DNA from: a virus
Virus record (IMG/VR): IMGVR_UViG_3300047094_001722
Coordinates: 1-44,484 of that record
Direction: 5' to 3' (one strand)
Length of the DNA: 44,484 nt
In this document: positions 2,871 to 31,442 of the stretch, piece after piece
Layout: every line of letters begins with the position of its first letter
Numbering within the stretch: position 1 is the first letter of the stretch
Program-made: the position numbers and the translations under genes
Notes under the pieces: model-generated
What the model saw: the letters and a program-made list of their open reading frames with translations, nothing else
Database searches by the model: none
What the model was told of the DNA's origin: nothing

Positions 2871-3998
2871 TCAGCCTCCCATCAAGAGAAACGGGTGTAT
2901 GAAGTCAGGCGAAGCCGCAGACGAAGCCGCCGCGACCGCCGAAGAAAAGTCGCTCACCTGCGCCGCCGTGATCGTCAGCGGATCGCTGCCTACTGCGGCG
3001 TGACTGCTGGCGTGGCTGGTGGGAGTTCTGCTGTTCGTCAATCGTGCGTCGCCAGTCAGCACGACGTTGGTGCTAAGGCGAGAATCAGACAACGTGCCCG
3101 ACACCAGATCACTTGCGTCTGTTGTTGCCGTCGCCGAGGAACCGGTCGCGCCCGTCGGCCCAGTAACGGTAGACGCGGCGCCAACCGCACCAGTCGCACC
3201 CGTCGGACCGGCAACGGTGGACGCCTGCCCTTGGCTTCCCGTTGCGCCCGTTGGACCCGTCACTGTTGACGCTGCACCGGCAGGGCCTGTGCTTCCCGTT
3301 GGACCCGTCACTGTTGACGCCTCTCCAGTCGCGCCCGTCGGCCCTGTCACCGTTGACGCGGCGCCAGTGCTCCCGGTCGGCCCTGTCACGGTAGAGGCAG
3401 CCCCCGCAGGACCTGCCGCGCCCGTCGGGCCGGTGACGGTAGATGCAGCGCCAGCGATTCCGGCAGGCCCGGTCGCTCCGTCGTTACCTTGGGCACCCGT
3501 GCTGCCGGTAGCTCCGACGGCGCCGTCGCTTCCACGCGCGCCCGTCGGCCCTGTGATGCTTTGGCCCGGCACTCCAGTCGGCCCCGTGCCGCCGACGCTT
3601 CCAGACGAACCAGTCGGACCACGCTCGCCAGCTGCTCCAGTCGGTCCCGTGATCGATTGACCGGCTGCGCCGGCTGGGCCTGTGATTGATTGGCCAGGTG
3701 CTCCGGTCGGACCGGAGGCGCCGGTCGGGCCGACGATCGACTCGCCCGCCACGCCCGACGGCCCGGTGGGTCCTGTTACGTTCGATGCAGCGCCGGTAGG
3801 TCCGACCGCGCCGACTTCGCCCTGCACGCCGCGTGGCCCGGTGACGCCGACGTCACCTCGAGGCCCAGTCGGCCCGACGCCAGCCAGCTGCACGGCGAAC
3901 GTCTGCCCGTTCGTGATCGTCGGGGCAATGCCTGTTGCCCCGGTGATGTTCACGGCGAACGGGGCTGGCCCTGTGACGGTGACGCGAATGTCGCTCAC
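2871..3998 (-). CDS. Long collagen-like fibre protein
   Basis: This 375-residue protein starts at GTG 3998, which overlaps the upstream TGA (GTGA). A short beta N-terminus (residues 1-40) is followed by about 230 residues of G-X-Y triplets, mostly GPT and GAT, in a loose block pattern [12 protein letters not shown]. The C-terminal 100 residues form a non-collagen domain ([12 protein letters not shown]..) of the type that ends phage tail fibres and may nucleate the trimer. Thr in the Y position of GPT is the glycan site in some bacterial collagens such as BclA. That parallel, together with the GT2 and methyltransferase genes nearby, makes glycosylation worth testing. Confidence 0.85.
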
Positions 3999-4489: not shown

Positions 4490-6490
4490 CTACTGAACGA
4501 GTTGCAGAGCGGCGAAGTTGCGACTACCGCAGTCGTTGCTGTTGTCGCCGGTGAACTTCCAGCGATAAGCACGGTAGTTTGCTGGCAACGGCAAGCTAAA
4601 GTTTTGCGTCTGCCAATAGCTGCCCCAAGTCTGGCCCGCGACGGTGTGCAGCACCGTCCACGAAGACAGGTCATCGGAACCTTCAAACGTCCAATTATTG
4701 ACACCAGCCCAAAACGCATTTCCACCAATCCCAACCGTATAGCCGCTGATGAGCGACTTTTGACCCTCTGGAAACGCATACTGCGGCGCGTCGAATACGC
4801 TGCTGCCACCGCACAGGTTTACGCTGACCGCTGCCCAAGAGACATTTCCGCCCTGTGCGAACACTGTCCACTTCTCAACAAAATCAACGGCGCGCACCGA
4901 TGATGTCAGACCGGCAGTGCCAGACGGAGAAGTGTCGCCGGTCATCGCAGGGATCGGTCGAAAGATGCCGCTGCTGGGTGTCACAGCAGCACTTGCCGCC
5001 GACCACGCGCCCTGCCCGATTCCGTTGATGGCAGCCGCACGAAATCGGACCGGGGTGCCGTTTGTCAGTCCGGTGACAGAGGTGCCGAGATGCGTAGCAC
5101 CGCTCGCCGCGTAGGTTGTCCAAGTCGAGCCGTCGTTGGTCGAAAACTGCAACGCTTGATCTGTGATCGGAGTCTGGGCCAGCACGCCAGTTGGCAGCGT
5201 CCACGCCACCACTGCTGACTGATTTCCAGCGGTTGCTACCACGTTTGTCGGTGCGCCCGGCTTGAAGAAATTCCAGCGTGCATCGTCGCTGCCAGAGCCG
5301 CCGCCGCCACCCCCCGTTGCTGACAACACGCCGTCCGTAATCGTCAGATTAGCGCCAACCTTGATGCCGCCGAGGACTGTGTCTGAGGCTGTCGGCAACG
5401 TGTAGGAGCCGCCAGCGCCTGTCGGCCCGGTCACCGTTGACGCTGCACCAGTCGGGCCTGTTGCCCCAACACCAGTCGGACCAGTTGGCCCCTGGGCTGT
5501 TGACGCCGCGCCAGTAGGCCCCGTCGCTCCAACACCCGTAGGGCCAGTTGGCCCCTGCTCTGTTGACGCCGCGCCAGTGGGTCCGGTTGCCCCAATACCA
5601 GTCGGACCTGCAACCCCAGTCGGGCCTGTCACGCTGCTCGAGGCACCTGTCGGTCCTGTAACAGAAGGTCCGGTCGCACCAGCCGGTCCGGTGACGTTGC
5701 TCGCAGCGCCGGTCGGCCCAGGTGGGATTGAGAAGTTAACGAGATAGCTGCCAGGCGAGACATTAACGAGCCCTGCCGCGGCCGGCGACGCGTTGTCCAC
5801 GTTGCCGATCGCCAGCACCGGCGTGACGCCCGTCGGACCAGTGACGTTGCTTGCGGCTCCAGTCGGGCCGGCTGGCAACACAAGCGACAACACCTGAGCT
5901 CCCGGCGCGCCCGAGAGCGACGCCGAAGCGATCGCTCCAACGCTCACGCTTCCAACCGACAGGAAATTTGGTGAGCCAGTCGGGCCGGTAGCGCCGATCC
6001 CAGTAGGCCCAGTGACGCTAGGGCCTGTCGCCCCCGTCGGGCCAGTGACATTGCTCGCAGCCCCAGTCGGGCCAGTAACGCTCGCCCCGGTGGCGCCGAC
6101 GCTTCCTGTCGCTCCGGTCGAACCGGCCCCGGTCGGACCAGTGGCCCCGGCACCCGTGGCTCCCGTCGGCCCCTGCGGGCCGCTCTGAAGCTGCAGGCCG
6201 CTGCCCCACGAGTTGCTTGCCTTCGGGCCGTAGAGCACGCCCGCATTGAAGTCGATGTAGTAGTCGCCACTGCGGCCGAGGCCAGACGATGGGCCTGTTG
6301 ATCCGCTGAAGATGAACCGTCCATCAACGCCAGCAGCGCCAGTCGGCCCCGTGGTGCCAGCCAGCGGCGCCCACGACGAGCCGTCCCACGTCAGCACCTG
6401 GCCGCCGGTCGGGCCGGTGGCCGCCACTGCGCGGCCCTGCAGCTGCGTCGCGTTGCCGCTTGTCGGTGATTGAATGCTGAAGTACGGCAC
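4490..6490 (-). CDS. Large collagen-like fibre with FN3-like and discoidin-like C-terminal domains
   Basis: This 666-residue protein begins at GTG 6490, sharing one base with the upstream TAG. That start matches the N-terminal module ([17 protein letters not shown]) shared with the 215-residue fibre protein. Order: the module, a VLYGPK domain, collagen triplets broken by two short ordered inserts (about residues 110-375), a polyglycine hinge, an FN3-like domain ([21 protein letters not shown]), and a C-terminal discoidin or F5/8-type domain ([22 protein letters not shown]). Domains of that last type often bind carbohydrate. This is the best candidate for the receptor-binding fibre in the region. 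Confidence 0.85.
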
Positions 6491-11732: not shown

Positions 11733-13847
11733 CTACCTACCCATCTTCGCAAGCAGGGCGGCCCGGCGGGCCGCGAGATCCTCGCGAGTGATCACTTTCC
11801 TAGTGACGGCCGGCTTGGCCTCGGCCCCGACAGCCGAGATCCCGGAGAACGACGCCGCGACCGCTGCCCCCACGACGCAGTCGAGCAGATGGTTGTCGCG
11901 CCCCGGGATGAGCTTCCACTCGTCGCACGCTCGCATCTTGGACTCCACTCGCACCGGCACCTCGCTCGCCAAGTGGTCGGCGAGCATGTCGTGGTTGCCG
12001 TCGTGGAGCGTCAGGGCCTGCGTGTCTCCGAGGGGTAGCTTCAGCCTGGCCATGAGGAACGTCTTCCAGGCGTTCGTGTCATAGAGCACGTGCCGCTGCT
12101 TTCCGATGGTGCTCGTCCGCCAGTTGGCCCCGATACGCTCGCCGCGGTCGGGGGCCTTGTCGCTGATCGTCTGGCCGGAGGCTCCCACGAACCGGCCGTG
12201 CGTCGGCAGCACCCGAGGGCCGTAGCTCGAGCGGCGCGCGAAGTCTCTAATCACTCCCTGCGTCTGTGCCCAGTTGGCGTCGATGAACATCTGCCCGACG
12301 CGGAGCACGGCCTCGTCGTTCTCGCGGGCGAACTCCCGGTCGAGGATCTCGGCGGCCACAGCCTCGAGGCCCGCGTGGATCGCGGCCTCGACGTTGTTGC
12401 CGTGGGCACGGGACAGGGTCTTCTTGGCGTCGCGGAGCGAGAAGTACGCCCGCCCCTGGTCGGGGTAGGTGCCGTAGCTCACGACGTGGCCACGGAACTG
12501 GTGGCCCCACGCCACGACCGCCCAGTAGAGCAATTCCTTCTGCACGTCCACAAAGCAGGTGAGCGTGTCGAGCCCTCGTGGCACCAGCCACCGCGGCACG
12601 TGGATCGCCCGGCCACGCACTTCCTCCGCGGAGATGCCGGAGGCGTCGGCCTCGTTGCGGATCGGTTCCTGCTGAAACTCGCTCGCGAAAACGCTCGCCC
12701 CGTCGTCGAGATACGCGTTGTACGCGTGCTGGATCGCGGAGTTCTCCCGCTCAGGATCAAAGCACGCCTCCCACGAGACTTGGCAGCCTTCATCCATAGC
12801 GGCACGGTTCGCGAGGTAGAACTCGTTGGCCTCCCGGTGCGCGCGGGCCTGGTCGCCGACTACGTCCTTGGCGAACGTCCGCCGGAGTGTCGCGTACTGC
12901 TCGAGCCACATATCCTCGTGGCGAGTGGACCAGTGCCGCACCATCGGGATCCGCTCTCCCTGCCATGCCGGATGCTTCCCTGAGTCGAGCAGCTGGTCGA
13001 CCATGTCGCCGTGCTCGATCACCGTTGCGTTGACCACGCAAGCCATGCTCGTCGTGTGGCCGGAGAGCTTCATGACGCTCTTGAGCAGGATCTCCATGCG
13101 GGCCTGGCACTGCACGGGGCTGCGGGCACTGTCACGCGTCTGCGGGTCGTCAACGATGCAGACGTCGGGACGCAGCTGCCGGCCGTCTGGCGTTTTCCAG
13201 CGCAGGCCGAGGATCGAGCCGGTCAGGCCGCGGCTCATGATGATCGCACCGCTCGACGGCGAGCCGTCGATGGTCGGGAGCACGAGCGTGTCTTTCTTCC
13301 ACTGGATGTGCGTTCGCTTGCCGGCGTGCGTCTGCGAGTTACACCGCTGGGCCTTGCCCTCCAGGGCACGCACGGCGTGGCACACTTCGGGGAAGTCTTC
13401 GTAGAGAAGGTCGTTATCGGAGAGCTCGGTGCGGATGGAGTTGATGGCTTTGGCGGCGAGGTCGCTCTCGGCGGCGAATATCGCACCGAATGAGCGGTGA
13501 CCGTAGAGCACGGCCCACAGAAGCGCGAGCTCGGAGATCGTGCTCTTGGCGAAGCCGCGGTAGACCGCGTTGACGAACCGGCCGCCGCGAGTCGAGCAGT
13601 CTTCGATGCGGCCGATCACGCGTTTGTGGTCGTCGCTGAACGGCGAGAGGCCGGTGGAGTAGGGGAAGTAGGTGGTAAGAAAAAGTAGCAAGCTTTTCCC
13701 ACACGAATCGCGGCGTGTACGGTTGAGCACCGGCGGGATTTCGCCGATGTCGGAGCCTTTTCGGGTGCGTTCGCGGGACCGCTCGACGTCCGCCAGCCGC
13801 TTCTGTTCACGGCTGTTGGCCGGATCTGCGCTCTTGGGCCTGGCCAT
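11733..13847 (-). CDS. terL: Terminase large subunit (GpA-type)
   Basis: This 704-residue protein starts at ATG 13847 with AGGACAGGA upstream. The ATPase half contains a Walker A-like YRGFAKST (residues about 96-103) and a Walker B-like CIVDDPQ (231-236). The nuclease half has FVDVQ (D434), FIDANW (D523) and GRDNHLLDC (D651, H653, D656), typical acidic positions of the RNase H-like packaging nuclease. The style of the second half recalls the GpA terminases of lambda and Mu-type relatives. No separate small terminase gene was recognised. It is the first gene of the late block. Confidence 0.88.
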   Translation of the reverse strand: MARPKSADPANSREQKRLADVERSRERTRKGSDIGEIPPVLNRTRRDSCGKSLLLFLTTYFPYSTGLSPFSDDHKRVIGRIEDCSTRGGRFVNAVYRGFAKSTISELALLWAVLYGHRSFGAIFAAESDLAAKAINSIRTELSDNDLLYEDFPEVCHAVRALEGKAQRCNSQTHAGKRTHIQWKKDTLVLPTIDGSPSSGAIIMSRGLTGSILGLRWKTPDGRQLRPDVCIVDDPQTRDSARSPVQCQARMEILLKSVMKLSGHTTSMACVVNATVIEHGDMVDQLLDSGKHPAWQGERIPMVRHWSTRHEDMWLEQYATLRRTFAKDVVGDQARAHREANEFYLANRAAMDEGCQVSWEACFDPERENSAIQHAYNAYLDDGASVFASEFQQEPIRNEADASGISAEEVRGRAIHVPRWLVPRGLDTLTCFVDVQKELLYWAVVAWGHQFRGHVVSYGTYPDQGRAYFSLRDAKKTLSRAHGNNVEAAIHAGLEAVAAEILDREFARENDEAVLRVGQMFIDANWAQTQGVIRDFARRSSYGPRVLPTHGRFVGASGQTISDKAPDRGERIGANWRTSTIGKQRHVLYDTNAWKTFLMARLKLPLGDTQALTLHDGNHDMLADHLASEVPVRVESKMRACDEWKLIPGRDNHLLDCVVGAAVAASFSGISAVGAEAKPAVTRKVITREDLAARRAALLAKMGR

Positions 13848-13950
13848 AAGTCCTGTCCTGGGGTAGGTTTCGGGAGTGAATCGACGCAGAGGGGGAGTTC
13901 GCAGCCGGGGCAGCCTGCGGCTGGGGGGCGGGAAGGACCCACCCCCCATT

Positions 13951-14011: not shown

Positions 14012-14074
14012 CGGCAGACACCCCCCTTTCACGCGGGCAAGTGTTGATCCGTTCACGTGTTCACGCGTGCACGT

Positions 14075-14103
14075 GTTCTACCCTCTGACCATTTCTTGAG
14101 CAA
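14075..14103 (-). promoter_or_regulatory. Possible late promoter upstream of terL
   Basis: Read on the minus strand: TTGCTC, 17 bases, TAGAAC. It would start transcription about 220 bases before the terminase start codon, ahead of both leader hairpins. The match to a sigma-70 consensus is only moderate. Confidence 0.3.
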
Positions 14104-14117
14104 TTGCAGACGCGTTG

Positions 14118-14147
14118 ACGTTGACGCGTCAACGTGCTCGAGCACGT
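14118..14147. promoter_or_regulatory. Two overlapping perfect palindromes between the divergent blocks
   Basis: An 18-bp palindrome (ACGTTGACGCGTCAACGT, 14118-14135) overlaps a 16-bp palindrome (ACGTGCTCGAGCACGT, 14132-14147). They lie in the 590-bp gene-free stretch between the terminase gene and the rightward block. Dyads of this length are typical of dimeric repressor sites or origin elements; which applies here is unknown. Confidence 0.55.
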
Positions 14148-14171
14148 GCACGCATTCTCAAATGCTAAGTG

Positions 14172-14183
14172 TCCGATTGGATA
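14172..14183. promoter_or_regulatory. Imperfect copy of the TCCGATCGGATA operator
   Basis: TCCGATTGGATA differs by one base from the core of the palindrome at 14232-14245, 60 bases to the right. It is a possible second binding site for the same regulator. It overlaps a TATTCT that could be a weak -10. Confidence 0.4.
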
Positions 14184-14220
14184 TTCTGTAAAGAATTCCG
14201 CGGCCGATTGCCGATCCCTC

Positions 14221-14249
14221 TTGTCACGCTGTATCCGATCGGATATAGT
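14221..14249 (+). promoter_or_regulatory. Promoter of the rightward block, with operator in the spacer
   Basis: TTGTCA (14221-14226), 17 bases, TATAGT (14244-14249) is a good sigma-70-type promoter pointing at the GP88-like gene. A perfect 14-bp palindrome, TATCCGATCGGATA (14232-14245), fills the spacer and touches the -10 element, so binding there should block RNA polymerase. The leader to the first start codon would be about 180 bases, AT-rich and with no gene. Confidence 0.65.
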
Positions 14250-14437
14250 GTTGACGTCGGCCGCGATTGAGACGGCCGAAAGTTACCTTTGGAAACGAGC
14301 TTGAAATGATTATCGACCTTGCTTTTGCGGCCGCAATTACTGCTTGTTCTTACTGTTTTTTCTGCAGTGTTGCTGAAGCCTATGAAACTCTCTGAATCCT
14401 CCCACACTCACACCCACACACAAAAAAGGATCTACCC

Positions 14438-15367
14438 ATGTCGACAACGTCAACCATCGTCAAAACAGTTTCGGCCGTGATGCTGGCCTATTCCGAGGAT
14501 TGGAACGGCAAAACGAAAAGCTTGCTCGGCGAGAATGCCAAGCTCACCAAGCTACCCGGCGGCGCCCCCGTACTGGCGCAAGGCGTGAGCATGGCCCCGG
14601 GCATTCATTCGATATTCGCGAATGTCTGCGAATTTCTCACAAAAGGCTGTTTCAATAGCTGCGTGTTGCATTTCGCCGGCCGCACGACCGGCGCCGCGGT
14701 CCGTGCAGCTGCTCGAGCTCGAACCGGATTGTGGCATTTTCTGCCGGACGTGTTCTATGCACGCCTGCGGTCTGAACTCGTGGCATTCGCCCGGCGATGC
14801 GCCCGGCTGGGCGTGGTCGGCTATATCCGCCTCAATACCGCTTCGGATATCGACCACGGTAGCGAATTGCCGAATATGTTTCCGAATATCGTGTTTTACC
14901 ACTACACAAAATCGATCGCCCGGTGCATTCAATATGCACGCGGCATGCGGCCGGCAAATGAGCATTACAGTTTTTCGATATCTGAGCGCACGACGTTTAG
15001 CCAGGTGCAACAGCTTGCGGGCCTGCGCTGCAATATGATCCTGGTCGTCGATGCGTGGTATCACGCTCAATACCGCGACCGAACGACCGGCGCCAAAGGC
15101 CGATACGCTCCACTGCCGGCCGTTGTGACGTTCAAGAATGCCGCCGGCGAAACTGTGACACTGCCGGCCGTCGACGGCGACGTCCACGACCTGCGTGTTC
15201 CGGAATTCGACGGCCGTGGTGTGGTTGTTTGCTTGCGGCTCAAGGGTAGCAAAAAGGCAAAGCAAAACGCCCGCGACACTGGTTTCGCCAAGCCGTGGCA
15301 GCATGGGCTTGAAAAGATTACGGGCGAGCTCGTGCAAAAGGGGGAAATTGTCGTCGACATGAAATAA
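14438..15367 (+). CDS. GP88-like phage protein
   Basis: This 309-residue protein starts at ATG 14438 with AAGGA upstream and is the first gene of the rightward block. The layout (GVSMAPGIHSIFANVCEF, CFNSCVLHFAGRTT, then FLPDVFYARLRSEL, VVGYIRLNTASDID, FPNIVFYHYTKS, EHYSFSISERT) recalls the Gene product 88 domain (PF17338) of mycobacteriophages and others, which has paired cysteines near the N-terminus and a YTKS signature. No biochemical role is known to me for that family. The gene uses noticeably more AT-ending codons (AAT, ATT, TAT) than the late genes and is full of 6-bp palindromes, which suggests a different history. Confidence 0.6.
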   Translation: MSTTSTIVKTVSAVMLAYSEDWNGKTKSLLGENAKLTKLPGGAPVLAQGVSMAPGIHSIFANVCEFLTKGCFNSCVLHFAGRTTGAAVRAAARARTGLWHFLPDVFYARLRSELVAFARRCARLGVVGYIRLNTASDIDHGSELPNMFPNIVFYHYTKSIARCIQYARGMRPANEHYSFSISERTTFSQVQQLAGLRCNMILVVDAWYHAQYRDRTTGAKGRYAPLPAVVTFKNAAGETVTLPAVDGDVHDLRVPEFDGRGVVVCLRLKGSKKAKQNARDTGFAKPWQHGLEKITGELVQKGEIVVDMK

Positions 15368-15385
15368 CCGACGGCCGGCCGTTGA

Positions 15386-15409
15386 CCCCCCGGGCGCATG
15401 CCCGGGGGG
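15386..15409. terminator. Strong GC hairpin after the GP88-like gene
   Basis: CCCCCCGGGC pairs perfectly with GCCCGGGGGG around a GCAT loop, 19 bases after the stop codon. There is no T-tract, so it may stabilise the mRNA 3' end or attenuate rather than terminate fully. Confidence 0.5.
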
Positions 15410-15457
15410 CATACGGCATGCCGACGGCATGCATCCACACCCCCTAGGAGTTTTGCC

Positions 15458-15625
15458 ATGCACGATGAATTCGACGATATGCCAACCGAGCTCGAGATCC
15501 TAGAAACCTATGCCGACATGGGAGAGCCTACGGCCGTTGCCGAGCTCGCACGACGTCGGGCAGCTGGTGAGAAGGTACAGCCGGCCGGCCTCATCGAGGC
15601 TCTTGTCGGCCGCGGATTTCTGTAA
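15458..15625 (+). CDS. Small acidic protein of unknown function
   Basis: ATG 15458 follows TAGGAG at normal spacing and gives a 55-residue protein (MHDEFDDMPTELEILETYADMGEPT.., ending EALVGRGFL). It is helical and acidic at the N-terminus, with no Cys or membrane stretch. GC hairpins stand before and after it, so it may be expressed at its own level within the rightward block. No family recognised. Confidence 0.6.
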   Translation: MHDEFDDMPTELEILETYADMGEPTAVAELARRRAAGEKVQPAGLIEALVGRGFL

Positions 15626-15695
15626 CGGCATGCCGTTGCCCGTCGTGGTGCACGAGCACCGCGACGGCATACGGCATGCCGTTGACGTCCTGCCC

Positions 15696-15718
15696 GGCCG
15701 GCCCAGTGTGGGCCGGCC
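15696..15718. terminator. Perfect GC hairpin between two small genes
   Basis: GGCCGGCCCA and TGGGCCGGCC flank a 3-base loop, 70 bases after the 55-residue gene. It has the same kind of placement as the hairpin at 15386-15409 and again lacks a T-tract. Possible attenuator or mRNA stabiliser. Confidence 0.45.
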
Positions 15719-15751
15719 GTCAACCATTCCACACCCCCCGGGGGATTTTCA

Positions 15752-15952
15752 ATGCTACGGGAAATATGCTGCGCCGATGGCGGTGCTTGTGATTGTGTCG
15801 CATGCCGGCCGGATCCGTTGACGGCCGCGCACGTCGTGGCCATATGCGAGCGGTTTTATGGTATCGACGACAACGGCGCCGAGGAGCTCAAAGCCATGAC
15901 GGCCGAGGAGCTCGAGGCGCAACTAGAGTATCTGGCAGACTTCCAAGGGTAA
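15752..15952 (+). CDS. Small Cys-containing protein of unknown function
   Basis: ATG 15752 follows a GGGGGA ribosome site and gives a 66-residue protein. The N-terminus holds four cysteines in CCADGGACDCVAC, which could bind a metal. The rest is helical and acidic (AEELKAMTAEELEAQLEYLADFQ). The stretch around the start resembles that of the preceding small gene (C-tract, then the ribosome site). No family recognised. Confidence 0.6.
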   Translation: MLREICCADGGACDCVACRPDPLTAAHVVAICERFYGIDDNGAEELKAMTAEELEAQLEYLADFQG

Positions 15953-16153
15953 GACGTCGGCGACGTGCACGCATGCGACGTCGGCCCAACTGGGCCGGCC
16001 CGCGGCCGTGCACGAGCTCACGTGGCGACGTCCGCGGCCGTTGACGGCCGCGGGCAGGCGCCGGCATGCCCATAGACTTACAAGCCGATAGCGGCCGCAT
16101 GCGGCCACGTGGCGACGCAGAATAGGATCCTGCAGGCGCCCGGGCGTGCACGG

Positions 16154-16192
16154 CCGCACAACACCGCACAACACCGCACAACACCGCACAAC
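16154..16192. repeat. 10-bp tandem repeat (3.9 copies), iteron-like
   Basis: The unit CCGCACAACA is repeated exactly, and the fourth copy lacks its last base. CGGCCG stands at both ends of the array. Short direct repeats in a non-coding region are the usual look of replication iterons or repressor arrays. No AT-rich unwinding region directly adjoins; the nearest is at about 16560-16700. Confidence 0.7.
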
Positions 16193-16407
16193 GGCCGACG
16201 TCGGCCGGCCGGGCTCGTGCACGATCGACCACGGCCCAGCCGACCAGCTGGGCCGGCCGGTCGTGCACGCAGAAAATCCGGCCGGCAGACTTGACCAGCT
16301 GCGCGCGCACAACTCGAGACACGATCGACCACACAAAAACAGAAACGGGCATGCATGCATGAAAAACACGCAGACGCAAACGGCCGCGGGCGGCCGCGGC
16401 ACCACTA

Positions 16408-16510
16408 CCCCCACACATAGGGGCCGCCCCCCACGAAGTGGGGTGCCTCGGCTACCCCCTCCCTGTGGGGGCTACCCCCACGACGGGGGCCTACCCCCAC
16501 GGAGAGGGGG
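16408..16510. repeat. Five tandem C-tract/G-tract hairpins
   Basis: Runs of 5-6 C and 4-5 G alternate five times: stems at 16408-16423, 16427-16443, 16455-16471, 16475-16489 and 16494-16510, with loops of 5-7 bases. Several copies begin CTACCCCC. The fifth loop reads ACGGAGA and contains ANGGA, the core that CsrA binds in RNA loops; a csrA gene is present at 22616-22837. A role as a CsrA sponge is speculative. Confidence 0.6.
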
Positions 16511-16592
16511 CCTGGCGGTTTGGAAGACCGAGTTTCCAAAGCTTCCTGCTACGGGGTTCCTCTGACATTTTTTTTTGAAATTCAGCAGGGGC

Positions 16593-16614: not shown

Positions 16615-16753
16615 ATATTTAATCGGCAAATGTCACGAAAAATCGCAAAAAAACTTCCGCCACCACGCCAGTATTTCCGACTGGATAATTGCTGGCCGTC
16701 GCGTAATAATCTCCCGTATCTCCACACCACAACCACGCAGAAAGGTGAAATTT

Positions 16754-16981
16754 ATGCCCAGCCCGCCTTCGGATGAATTGCTCGTGCAGTTCCAGGGGAG
16801 AATGAGTTTCCTAGAAACCATGTGGGGTTGCCAAACCTCCTACGATGTCGACCTTGAAACTGGCCGCGGCTGGCTCGAGGTGCGGATGCCGGGCACCGGC
16901 GCCGTCCTGCGGCTGAACCGGTTCAACGTGAAAGACGTGATGGTGCCAGGGGAGGGCGGCGTTCAGCCGTCGGTGAAATGA
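16754..16981 (+). CDS. Small protein of unknown function
   Basis: ATG 16754 follows AGGTGAAA and gives a 75-residue protein. It contains SYDVDLETGRGWLEVRMPGTGAVLRL, which suggests a small beta sheet, and ends on a basic lysine. It overlaps the next gene by ATGA, so the two are translated together. No family recognised; coupling to an HTH gene suggests a regulatory partner. Confidence 0.6.
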   Translation: MPSPPSDELLVQFQGRMSFLETMWGCQTSYDVDLETGRGWLEVRMPGTGAVLRLNRFNVKDVMVPGEGGVQPSVK

Positions 16982-17190
16982 GCAAACCCAAGATGATCGA
17001 TCCCACGAAATACATTCGCGTCGGCACAGCTGCAGAACTTGCTGGCGTTACCCGAGCGTATCTGAATCGAATGATCGTGGCCGGCACGTTTCCTGGCATA
17101 GAAATCGATGGCCAGCATTTCGTGCTTCGTGCCGACGCCGAGAACTTCATGCGTCAACCAGGACGCGGTCGGCCACGGCTTACGAAGTAG
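16978..17190 (+). CDS. Excisionase/MerR-like HTH protein
   Basis: This 70-residue protein starts at ATG 16978 in an ATGA overlap. YIRVGTAAELAGVTRAYLNR is a winged-helix or MerR-type helix-turn-helix of the excisionase kind (residues 12-32), followed by a wing with HFVLRADAENF and a basic tail GRGRPRLTK. It may regulate the palindrome-overlapped promoter at 14221-14249 or act as a recombination directionality factor, though the integrase is 8 kb away. Its 3' end overlaps the convergent nuclease gene by 11 bases. Confidence 0.65.
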   Translation: MSKPKMIDPTKYIRVGTAAELAGVTRAYLNRMIVAGTFPGIEIDGQHFVLRADAENFMRQPGRGRPRLTK

Positions 17191-17955: not shown

Positions 17956-18204
17956 TCAGCCTCCGATGACTCGCAGTGTACGTGCCTTCCCTTGCCGCCA
18001 AATAACAACGCCGTCGCGGCGAAGCCGCTCGAGCTTCTGCTGGACGTCGGCCACGTGAGTGCCCGTCTCGGTGCACAGTTCACGCACCGTTGGCGGCAGG
18101 CCGTCGCCAGCGGCCGTCAGTCGCCGGATCGCGTCGACGAGCTCAAGCTGCTTGGCCGTTGTGCCGGCCGACTTGGCCGCCGGGATCTGCTGCAGGGTGT
18201 TCAT
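17956..18204 (-). CDS. LexA-like winged-helix DNA-binding protein
   Basis: This 82-residue protein starts at ATG 18204 in an ATGA overlap. TAKQLELVDAIRRLTAAGDGLPPTVRELCTETG is the pattern of the LexA N-terminal winged helix (ending around residue 50), followed by VQQKLERLRRDGVVIWRQGKARTLRV, the recognition helix and wing. There is no peptidase half, so it is not a self-cleaving LexA. A role as a small regulator or replication accessory is likely. Confidence 0.7.
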   Translation of the reverse strand: MNTLQQIPAAKSAGTTAKQLELVDAIRRLTAAGDGLPPTVRELCTETGTHVADVQQKLERLRRDGVVIWRQGKARTLRVIGG

Positions 18205-19067
18205 GCTGTTGCCTCATCGGTAATTTTCAGTGATGCAGCCACGGACGATGCCAGGCCGCCATTCCTGCGATCCCGCCGCCAAGCAGCGTGCTCGGCGTCG
18301 GTCATGGATCGCTGCGCGTCGGAGCGGAAGAACCGCTTCTTTGCAGCGTCAACCGGCGGCGATGCCGCCGGCCGTGCAGCCTCTCGATGGGTGCCACCAC
18401 GATCCTGGCATCTGGTCAACCACGTCGTGGTGAGCCATTTCCGCCAGTTCGATTTCCGTGCCTTCTTGGGATTCGCCTTGAGCCACTGGTGGGCCTTGGC
18501 GAGTTCGACGGGAAGGTCAGCCGCCGGGTAAGCCTGTGACCATTCCGCATGGTCAGCGTCGGTGATGCCCTCCCAGCCTGAATCCGACCACCGAAGCGGA
18601 TCAGCTGGCTTCGAGCGAGCCCGCGGAGCGGCGCTGCTCGGAGCAGTAGAGGGAAGAGGATTAGAGGAAAGAGGAAAGAGGAAAGAGGCGCAATTCGCCG
18701 GGAGATTTCCCGGCTCGCCGGGAAAAAACACGGCTTGCCCATCTTCACAGGGGGGGAGGCCTTCAGAACGCTCCTCCGGATGGCACCGCTGGTGCTCACC
18801 AAACTTCGGTATCTCGAGGATTTTCTTGCCGCCGGCCTCATAGGCCACGACGAAACCGCGGGCCTGCAGCTGCCCCAGCATGGCGACGATGTCGCAGTTG
18901 TCATACGGAAATAGTTCCGCCTTGATCCGCAGCGGGCGGCATTCCAGCCGGCCGTCGCGGTCGGCGAGCGTCCACAGGCCGACGAACAACAGCCTGGCCA
19001 GCGGGTCGCACTCGGCCAGGAACTCGTTCTTGAAGAAAGACGGTTTGATGTTACGAGCTCGAGCCAT
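18201..19067 (-). CDS. DnaD-like phage replication protein
   Basis: This 288-residue protein has a start at ATG 19067 after AAGGAGG. The N-terminus (MARARNIKPSFFKNE, then LLFVGLWTLADRDGRLE and RIKAELFPYD) is the typical opening of phage replisome-organiser or DnaD-type proteins, a winged helix that binds the origin. The middle (about 130-165) is Ser/Pro-rich and unstructured. The C-terminus is helical and basic and includes KARKSNWRKWLTTTWL. It probably recruits the host helicase; no helicase gene was seen in the phage. Confidence 0.78.
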   Translation of the reverse strand: MARARNIKPSFFKNEFLAECDPLARLLFVGLWTLADRDGRLECRPLRIKAELFPYDNCDIVAMLGQLQARGFVVAYEAGGKKILEIPKFGEHQRCHPEERSEGLPPCEDGQAVFFPGEPGNLPANCASFLFPLSSNPLPSTAPSSAAPRARSKPADPLRWSDSGWEGITDADHAEWSQAYPAADLPVELAKAHQWLKANPKKARKSNWRKWLTTTWLTRCQDRGGTHREAARPAASPPVDAAKKRFFRSDAQRSMTDAEHAAWRRDRRNGGLASSVAASLKITDEATA

Positions 19068-30626: not shown

Positions 30627-31442
30627 TCAGTTCGGCGGCTTGCAGCCCGGGCCGCGAAGCGTACCGTCATTCAGGTGCGGCCAGAGCTCGTGGGAATGGC
30701 ACGCCGCCAGCAGGTTCCAGGCAGCATGCCCGAGGTGCGGCTCGCTGCGGTCGCCGGAGAGAAACTGGTAGACGTGGGCGATCGCGTGATTGAGCAGGTC
30801 GTGAACCGGCATGCCCTTTTCCCAATTGAAGTCTGAGTATTTCTGAGCCCCCTCGGCACACGCTCGAGCGACTTCACGAATCCCGATCGGCGAGACGAGG
30901 TCATAGCGGAACTCCTCGAACGTGCTCGACCGCACGGCACCAGTGCCGAACTTCTCCGTGGTGCCTGGCTGCGCCGCTGTGTCAGGCAGTGCCGTATCGC
31001 CGACCACTCTCCGATCAAGCGGCTCACTGGAATGGGGGCCGCGAATCCGCTCCTGGAGATCCTGCTGCCGCTGCTTTACGCCGGCCCACGCGGCCTCCAG
31101 CTGTTCCGGAGGCATGCCGCTGGTCATGATCGGCTCGTCGAACTTGGCCTCCGGCACCGGCGTTGCCGGTGTCAGCGTGTAATCCGCGTAGCCCTCCGGC
31201 AGGTTGAGGGCAGGGGGGGCGTGACACTTGCCGCCGTCGCAGCATCCGCCGCGCGACTCAATTGCAGCCCGCATGGCCGCGTTGCTCTGCTCCAACTCTG
31301 TGATCGTTCCCATAAGTAGCTCCCTCTCCCGGATCAATCGTGCCGTGTCTGCCGCCAACGAGCCACTGGTGCCGCACCACTGGCCCTGAAATCGATACGC
31401 CCGCCGCCGGGCTTCCGCGATGTATTCGTCCGTGAGTCTCAC
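30627..31442 (-). CDS. dATP/dGTP diphosphohydrolase-like protein (MazZ/DUF5664 type)
   Basis: This 271-residue protein starts at ATG 31442 in an ATGA overlap. Residues of about 170-265 (RYDLVSPIGIREVARACAEGAQKY, then NWEKGMPVHDLLNHAIAHVYQFL and HLGHAAWNLLAACH) match the phage domain PF18909, named for dATP/dGTP diphosphohydrolase. Related MazZ enzymes serve phages that replace adenine by 2-aminoadenine. No purZ or datZ was seen, so nucleotide-pool control is the simpler reading. The N-terminal half holds a helix and a short Cys cluster (GGCCDGGKCH) not usual for the family. Confidence 0.72.
   Translation of the reverse strand: MRLTDEYIAEARRRAYRFQGQWCGTSGSLAADTARLIRERELLMGTITELEQSNAAMRAAIESRGGCCDGGKCHAPPALNLPEGYADYTLTPATPVPEAKFDEPIMTSGMPPEQLEAAWAGVKQRQQDLQERIRGPHSSEPLDRRVVGDTALPDTAAQPGTTEKFGTGAVRSSTFEEFRYDLVSPIGIREVARACAEGAQKYSDFNWEKGMPVHDLLNHAIAHVYQFLSGDRSEPHLGHAAWNLLAACHSHELWPHLNDGTLRGPGCKPPN

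Follow-up and report, generated by a model that had tools for sequence, protein, structure and literature searches.

The window analysed here, the whole 44,484-nucleotide stretch of IMG/VR virus record IMGVR_UViG_3300047094_001722, assembles into a circle, with 127 bp identical at its two ends, and has a G+C content of ~63%. Between its terminase large-subunit gene and a lambda-O-like initiator gene lies a module that opens with a GP88-family gene and continues through two small genes (A and B), two similar palindromic intergenic modules, a non-coding core, a run of CCCC/GGGG hairpins and two further small genes (Table 1). Throughout, the leader is the ~2.5 kb from one inferred physical genome end (~13.90 kb) to ~16.44 kb, and the core is 15953-16400. 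The predicted structure of GP88 (mean pLDDT 48) was too poor for a structure search. The operator-like dyads TATCC-N4-GGATA carry changes on both sides between relatives, and a LexA-like HTH gene (17956-18204) could be their repressor. The stem of the second hairpin module has likewise changed on both sides between relatives, and the CCCC/GGGG hairpins (16405-16513), a run that varies, are followed in all relatives by a conserved T9 tract and are a possible terminator or boundary element.

Table 1. Features of the leader module and its surroundings in the window (positions are those of the whole window).
Feature	Position	Strand	Remarks
Terminase large subunit (GpA family)	11733..13847	-	PF20454, PHROG 38/15; synonymous z ~0
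Putative cos site, 13 nt (GTTCGCAGCCGGG)	13897..13909	.	Missing from both sets of contig ends
Conserved upstream region	14028..14260	+	Palindromes, operator-like dyads, promoter-like site 14221-14249
Operator-like dyads TATCC-N4-GGATA before GP88	14170-14183, 14232-14245 (TATCCGATCGGATA)	+	Overlap promoter-like site
GP88-family gene	14438..15367	+	First gene of module; PF17338, E 5e-27
Palindrome/hairpin module 1	15368..15457	.	Intergenic, precedes gene A
Gene A, 55 aa	15458..15625	+	Gain/loss cassette; absent from L005, L006, L007, L021
Palindrome/hairpin module 2	15622..15751	.	Intergenic, resembles module 1
Gene B, 66 aa	15752..15952	+	Conserved within clade
Non-coding core of leader	15953..16400	.	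Densest palindrome stretch of genome
C/A-rich tandem repeat CCGCACAACA, x3.9	16154..16192	+	Within core; unit and copy number vary between relatives
CCCC/GGGG hairpin run, then conserved TCTGACATTTTTTTTTG	16405..16576	+	Hairpin number variable; right boundary of excess
Third operator-like dyad	16674..16687	+	Ahead of next genes
Small gene of module	16754-16981	+	No palindrome excess
Small gene of module, excisionase-like HTH	16978-17190	+	No palindrome excess
Lambda-O-like initiator gene	18201-19067		Internal AG-rich repeats

Eleven ends of related contigs fell at two places, with nine terminase-side ends starting at the homologue of 13896 (TCCCC...) and two GP88-side ends at the homologue of 13910, the latter position being given by two contigs and library effects being able to move ends by a few bases. 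The gap between these shared ends is probably a cos site that leaves 3' overhangs. Shared ends of independent metagenome contigs (L041-L058, L005, L006) can in this manner locate the physical ends (cos) of a phage family that has not been cultured, with no need for an isolate, and the 13-nt cos core is nearly preserved in L063, whose terminase is 76% identical. If the layout is that of lambda, where packaging begins on the terminase side, the GP88 end would go into the capsid last and would enter the cell first. Many GP88 homologues in Pelagibacter, Roseobacter and Mesorhizobium phages (L032-L040) are sited at a record end or close to one, often not far from the terminase end, and this location in unrelated phages suggests an early, first-entering role for the GP88 family.

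Palindrome counts revealed that 15953-16340 has the highest density of six-base palindromes in the genome. A first-pass annotation of this DNA had counted about 40 such words there, roughly seven times the even-composition expectation, and we found 46 (~7.6-fold). It had also set beforehand, as its refuting test, a comparison with dinucleotide-matched shuffles, and the observed density lies far above these (12.3±3.5 palindromes, maximum 25, in 500 dinucleotide-preserving shuffles; z ~10), as do the numbers of 8-mer (23 vs 3.5) and 10-mer (8 vs 1.2) palindromes. When the whole window was shuffled (n=20), the best 388-bp stretch per shuffle held 17-27 palindromes, as compared with 47 observed. 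Mirror words were likewise somewhat over-represented (277 vs 151), from GGCC/CCGG runs, and part of the palindrome excess is therefore GC-run composition; six-bp dyads containing A/T, taken alone, still stood at 4.5 times the expected number, and a second-order Markov model of the leader over seven lineages still gave a palindrome ratio of 2.87. The dinucleotide shuffles, the Markov model and the A/T-containing dyads rule out chance or base composition as the cause.

Profiled in 250-bp bins positioned relative to the GP88 start, the excess proved one-sided, running from the genome end, where the first bin just inside holds 13 vs 4 palindromes, to ~16.44 kb (+2000), where the background level is regained sharply as the CCCC/GGGG hairpins begin; the terminase side of the genome end has no palindrome excess. 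By part, the excess is ~1.3-2 fold in GP88, ~3 fold in genes A and B and 3-5 fold in the non-coding core. The enriched DNA had earlier been described as non-coding, which is true of the core, whereas the enriched region also takes in GP88 and two small genes. Enrichment had further been claimed at 14.03-14.15 kb and in the GP88 gene, and both are borne out by our counts, with 9 palindromes vs 2.7 at 14030-14150 (z 4) and 33 vs 21 in synonymous-codon shuffles of GP88 (z 3 in the window, 2.3-5.1 in relatives). GP88, gene A and gene B lay above synonymous-codon shuffles in every lineage (z 1.6 to 5.2), and almost all other genes put through this test were without excess. An ASCH-like gene (Pfam match below cut-off) inserted in the leader of relative L026 showed no clear palindrome excess, which indicates that the pattern is not immediate in DNA placed there. 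This gene (~1445-1800 of L026) occupies the cassette position of gene A and is flanked by the same palindromic modules.

Relatives were collected by GP88, by the T-run pattern and by the leader pattern, and seven other contigs peak at the same place, which rules out an assembly artefact. Mismatch was 0.14 at palindrome positions and 0.27 elsewhere, which makes the former the better conserved. When observed substitutions were re-placed at random on like bases, pair by pair (the pairs not being independent), palindrome losses came to about half of the random-placement expectation, with all pairs in agreement, and gains to about 2-3 times that expectation in nearly all pairs, such that the number of palindromes stays level across lineages (37-53 per 420-530 bp) while individual words turn over. 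This bias, towards gain and away from loss when compared with random substitution, suggests that the leader array is maintained by selection for palindromy as such. Concerted double changes in dyads showed no excess over an odd-centred control. The peak is not a general trait of GP88 phages, since five genomes of GP88 phages with marine hosts are without it, nor of terminase relatives, where over 50 loci of other clades gave a best z of <=3.1. Searches for similar DNA in phages or plasmids found none, and a host search via GP88 or the terminase in bacterial genomes returned nothing.

The unit of the array is a gap-free dyad of 6-8 bp that is without extension bias past ~10 bp, with observed (expected) dyad extension of 0.74 (0.30) from 4 to 6 bp, 0.49 (0.31) from 6 to 8 bp, 0.38 (0.29) from 8 to 10 bp and 0.22 (0.29) from 10 to 12 bp. 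Gap-free arms were enriched and arms with 1-, 3- or 5-nt gaps were depleted. Hairpins with compensatory changes are present between genes, and they do not explain the gap-free dyads. Predicted folding was strong on both strands, stems held 143 G-T as compared with 200 A-C pairs, and the compensatory changes seen in some stems are equally expected of DNA hairpins. An Rfam search gave no match near its gathering score, and a tRNA search found none. Strand-symmetric folding together with the lack of a G-T excess over A-C favours symmetry that acts at the level of DNA rather than via RNA folding. Across the core and its relatives, inverted repeats with 1-, 3-, 5-, 7- and 9-nt gaps were depleted to about 0.4-0.65, a depletion that a simulation with planted palindromes failed to reproduce.

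That phages normally avoid such words, as the first-pass annotation had remarked, is true of the sister clades, whose terminases are 69-79% identical to those of the window's clade. Their Markov-2 palindrome ratio is 0.58, as compared with 0.86 in the window's clade outside the leader and the far higher ratio inside it, and their terminase genes hold 0.55-0.82 of the palindromes of synonymous shuffles, as compared with about 1.0 in the window's clade. Because temperate phages avoid palindromes less than virulent phages (PMC6286503) and the window encodes an integrase, lifestyle confounds this genome-wide contrast, though not the leader. In sister loci L060 and L066 the O-like gene lies within about 0.9 kb of the terminase, and in L060 the interval holds an HTH gene and a RuvC-like ORF (read from its translation). 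None of the sister loci yielded GP88, which makes the GP88-leader module specific to this clade among those sampled.

Some words are missing even here. In the sampled clade outside the leader, GGGCCC was found 0 times with 28 expected, CCATGG 0 with 20 and CGTACG 2 with 27, and the leader likewise lacks GGGCCC and CCATGG. The absence of these two words from clade and leader suggests that some restriction pressure persists and makes wholesale modification unlikely, which weakens the earlier proposal of DNA modified so that restriction does not matter. Among the proteins scanned there was no DNA methylase. The same absence may reflect hosts whose restriction systems resemble ApaI and NcoI.

We tentatively explain the module, with a rough probability of 0.27, as the leading end of a cos phage in which diverse dyads would act as decoy sites for homodimeric Type II enzymes, and hence as an anti-restriction device. 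This end comprises the GP88 gene, small cassette genes and the non-coding core, and gap-free 6-8 bp dyads saturate its sequence. As in lambda-like phages, it would be the last part packaged and the first to reach the cell; the dyads met on entry would bind homodimeric Type II restriction or methylation enzymes, the bound enzymes would be kept off the remaining genome, and GP88 would possibly assist as an early counter-defence protein. Such a decoy would account for a clade that has the module and, unlike its sisters, no longer avoids palindromes elsewhere. The fuller claim, that a first-entering end loaded with diverse restriction sites sponges up Type II enzymes and frees the remaining genome from having to avoid palindromes, is more doubtful.

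Several observations are in line with the decoy. The excess starts at the genome end and is one-sided, 6-8 bp is the size of orthodox Type II sites, many different words are involved in genes as well as spacers, and palindromes show a deficit of losses and a surplus of gains against random placement while their number stays level. Avoidance has been lost in the terminase gene and genome of the module clade and kept in sisters without the module, and the absence of clade-avoided words from the leader too is what one expects if only tolerated words can serve. GP88 genes of unrelated phages are found at record ends or close to them, and first-entering plasmid regions are known hot spots of anti-defence genes (PMC11541004). 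Against it, a decoy that is unprotected or unmodified would be cut too, and the choice of words in the leader does not correlate with the words most avoided by sisters (rho 0.09). The lost avoidance is also a single evolutionary contrast that a temperate lifestyle could underlie, and GP88 phages of marine hosts are without the palindrome peak.

Nearly as likely as the decoy is a dyad-binding protein, in which case the leader would be a dense site array for a dimeric DNA-binding protein of phage or host (a regulator, an architectural protein or one used in entry or packaging) that needs two-fold symmetry over any particular word and has no link to restriction. The length of the dyads and their gap-free, strand-symmetric form at the DNA level would suit such a protein, a kind of target that the first-pass annotation had also proposed, as would the true operator-like dyads that flank the region and the position of the array next to the genome end, but known dimeric binders favour one consensus whereas many words occur here, the helical phasing of dyad centres is weak and not clear, and genes are affected too.

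A less probable source of the array is palindromic mobile or recombination modules (REP/MITE-like elements or template-switch products) that pile up at a hot spot of gene cassettes. The alike hairpin modules on either side of gene A, which is itself present or absent, the ASCH-like gene that takes this position in L026 and an additional hairpin block in L003 and L007 would all be products of such a process; it leaves unexplained the excess inside the old GP88 gene and the 6-8 bp unit, and does not fit gap-free dyads without concerted double changes or an inserted ASCH-like gene without excess. A self-search of the genome with 15800-16500 gave one local inverted match only, and module copies are local, as opposed to REP/MITE-like dispersed repeats.

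Unlikely is a large structured, or multimerising, RNA from an early operon, for which strong predicted folding and hairpins with compensatory changes speak, but both strands fold strongly, stems carry no G-T excess, arms separated by 1, 3 or 5 nt are under-represented, and the excess runs through genes in a region that matches no Rfam family. Phage T5, in its first-step transfer, has an injection-stop region close to its leading end, a stretch of non-coding DNA rich in repeats and palindromes, and by analogy palindromes near the first-entering end might here pause entry until early proteins are made; palindrome-rich non-coding DNA does lie shortly inside the inferred leading end, past early genes, but the dyads are short, genes are enriched too, and T5 is a phage of a different type, so that we consider such a pause quite improbable. 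At least as improbable is a replication origin or packaging signal, both of which the first-pass annotation had proposed and which might be suggested by tandem repeats within conserved non-coding DNA close to the putative cos site. The lambda-O-like initiator gene with its internal AG-rich repeats, at 18.2-19.1 kb, is the better candidate for an origin, the 10-bp repeats of the core vary in unit and number, and sister L060 has initiator and terminase without the module. As for packaging, the array starts from the putative cos end and peaks 2.0-2.5 kb away from the cut ends at 13896/13910, which means that the array is not the cos site itself. Least probable of all is an escape from CRISPR memory, in which spacers, taken up preferentially from the injected end, would suffer from self-complementarity and function badly. 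An end-proximal, one-sided, word-independent symmetry would serve this purpose, but gap-free dyads of 6-8 bp do not fold back on themselves.

Among known systems, the early left ends of T7-like phages are first-entering and bear small genes at a genome end, as the module does, and GP88 homologues of T7-like phages also sit at genome ends. The leading regions of conjugative plasmids (PMC11541004) are similarly first-entering with small genes, but both systems are noted for their proteins or single-stranded promoters and not for palindrome-saturated sequence. Restriction-site avoidance in phages (PMC6286503) concerns the same 6-bp palindromes and is seen in the sister clades, whereas its sign is reversed in the leader and it has been lost across most of this clade's genome. 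REP/BIME elements resemble the module as GC-rich hairpins between genes, with similar copies and cassette-linked gain and loss, but the leader has an excess inside genes too, many unrelated words and a place at one genome end only. GOLLD and ROOL RNAs (PMC12286853) share with the core several hundred conserved non-coding bases, strong folding and phage association, whereas the core has no Rfam match, no strand-specific pairing signature and gap-free dyads instead of loops. Open-access papers yielded no description of a palindrome-saturated phage end. By the tests applied, the pattern fits neither a known RNA family nor an origin, a cos site, dispersed repeats or fully modified DNA.

Short palindromes are the best-known class of words avoided by phages, and here they are kept at ~three to four times expectation over one defined genome end, in genes and spacers alike, something that present ideas about the composition of phage genomes would not lead one to expect, whatever the cause. 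If true, the decoy would represent a new kind of anti-restriction device, acting through DNA rather than protein, and a form of counter-defence that is the reverse of avoiding sites. A comparison of sister clades that have the module with those that lack it offers a ready test.

Elsewhere in the window, 30627-31313 encodes the N-terminal domain of a dATP/dGTP diphosphohydrolase (PF18909), with no adenylosuccinate-synthase-like gene among the proteins scanned, and in the tail region collagen-like repeats occur in the protein at 2871-3998 and a 63-bp tandem repeat lies in the tail fibre gene (5436-5608).
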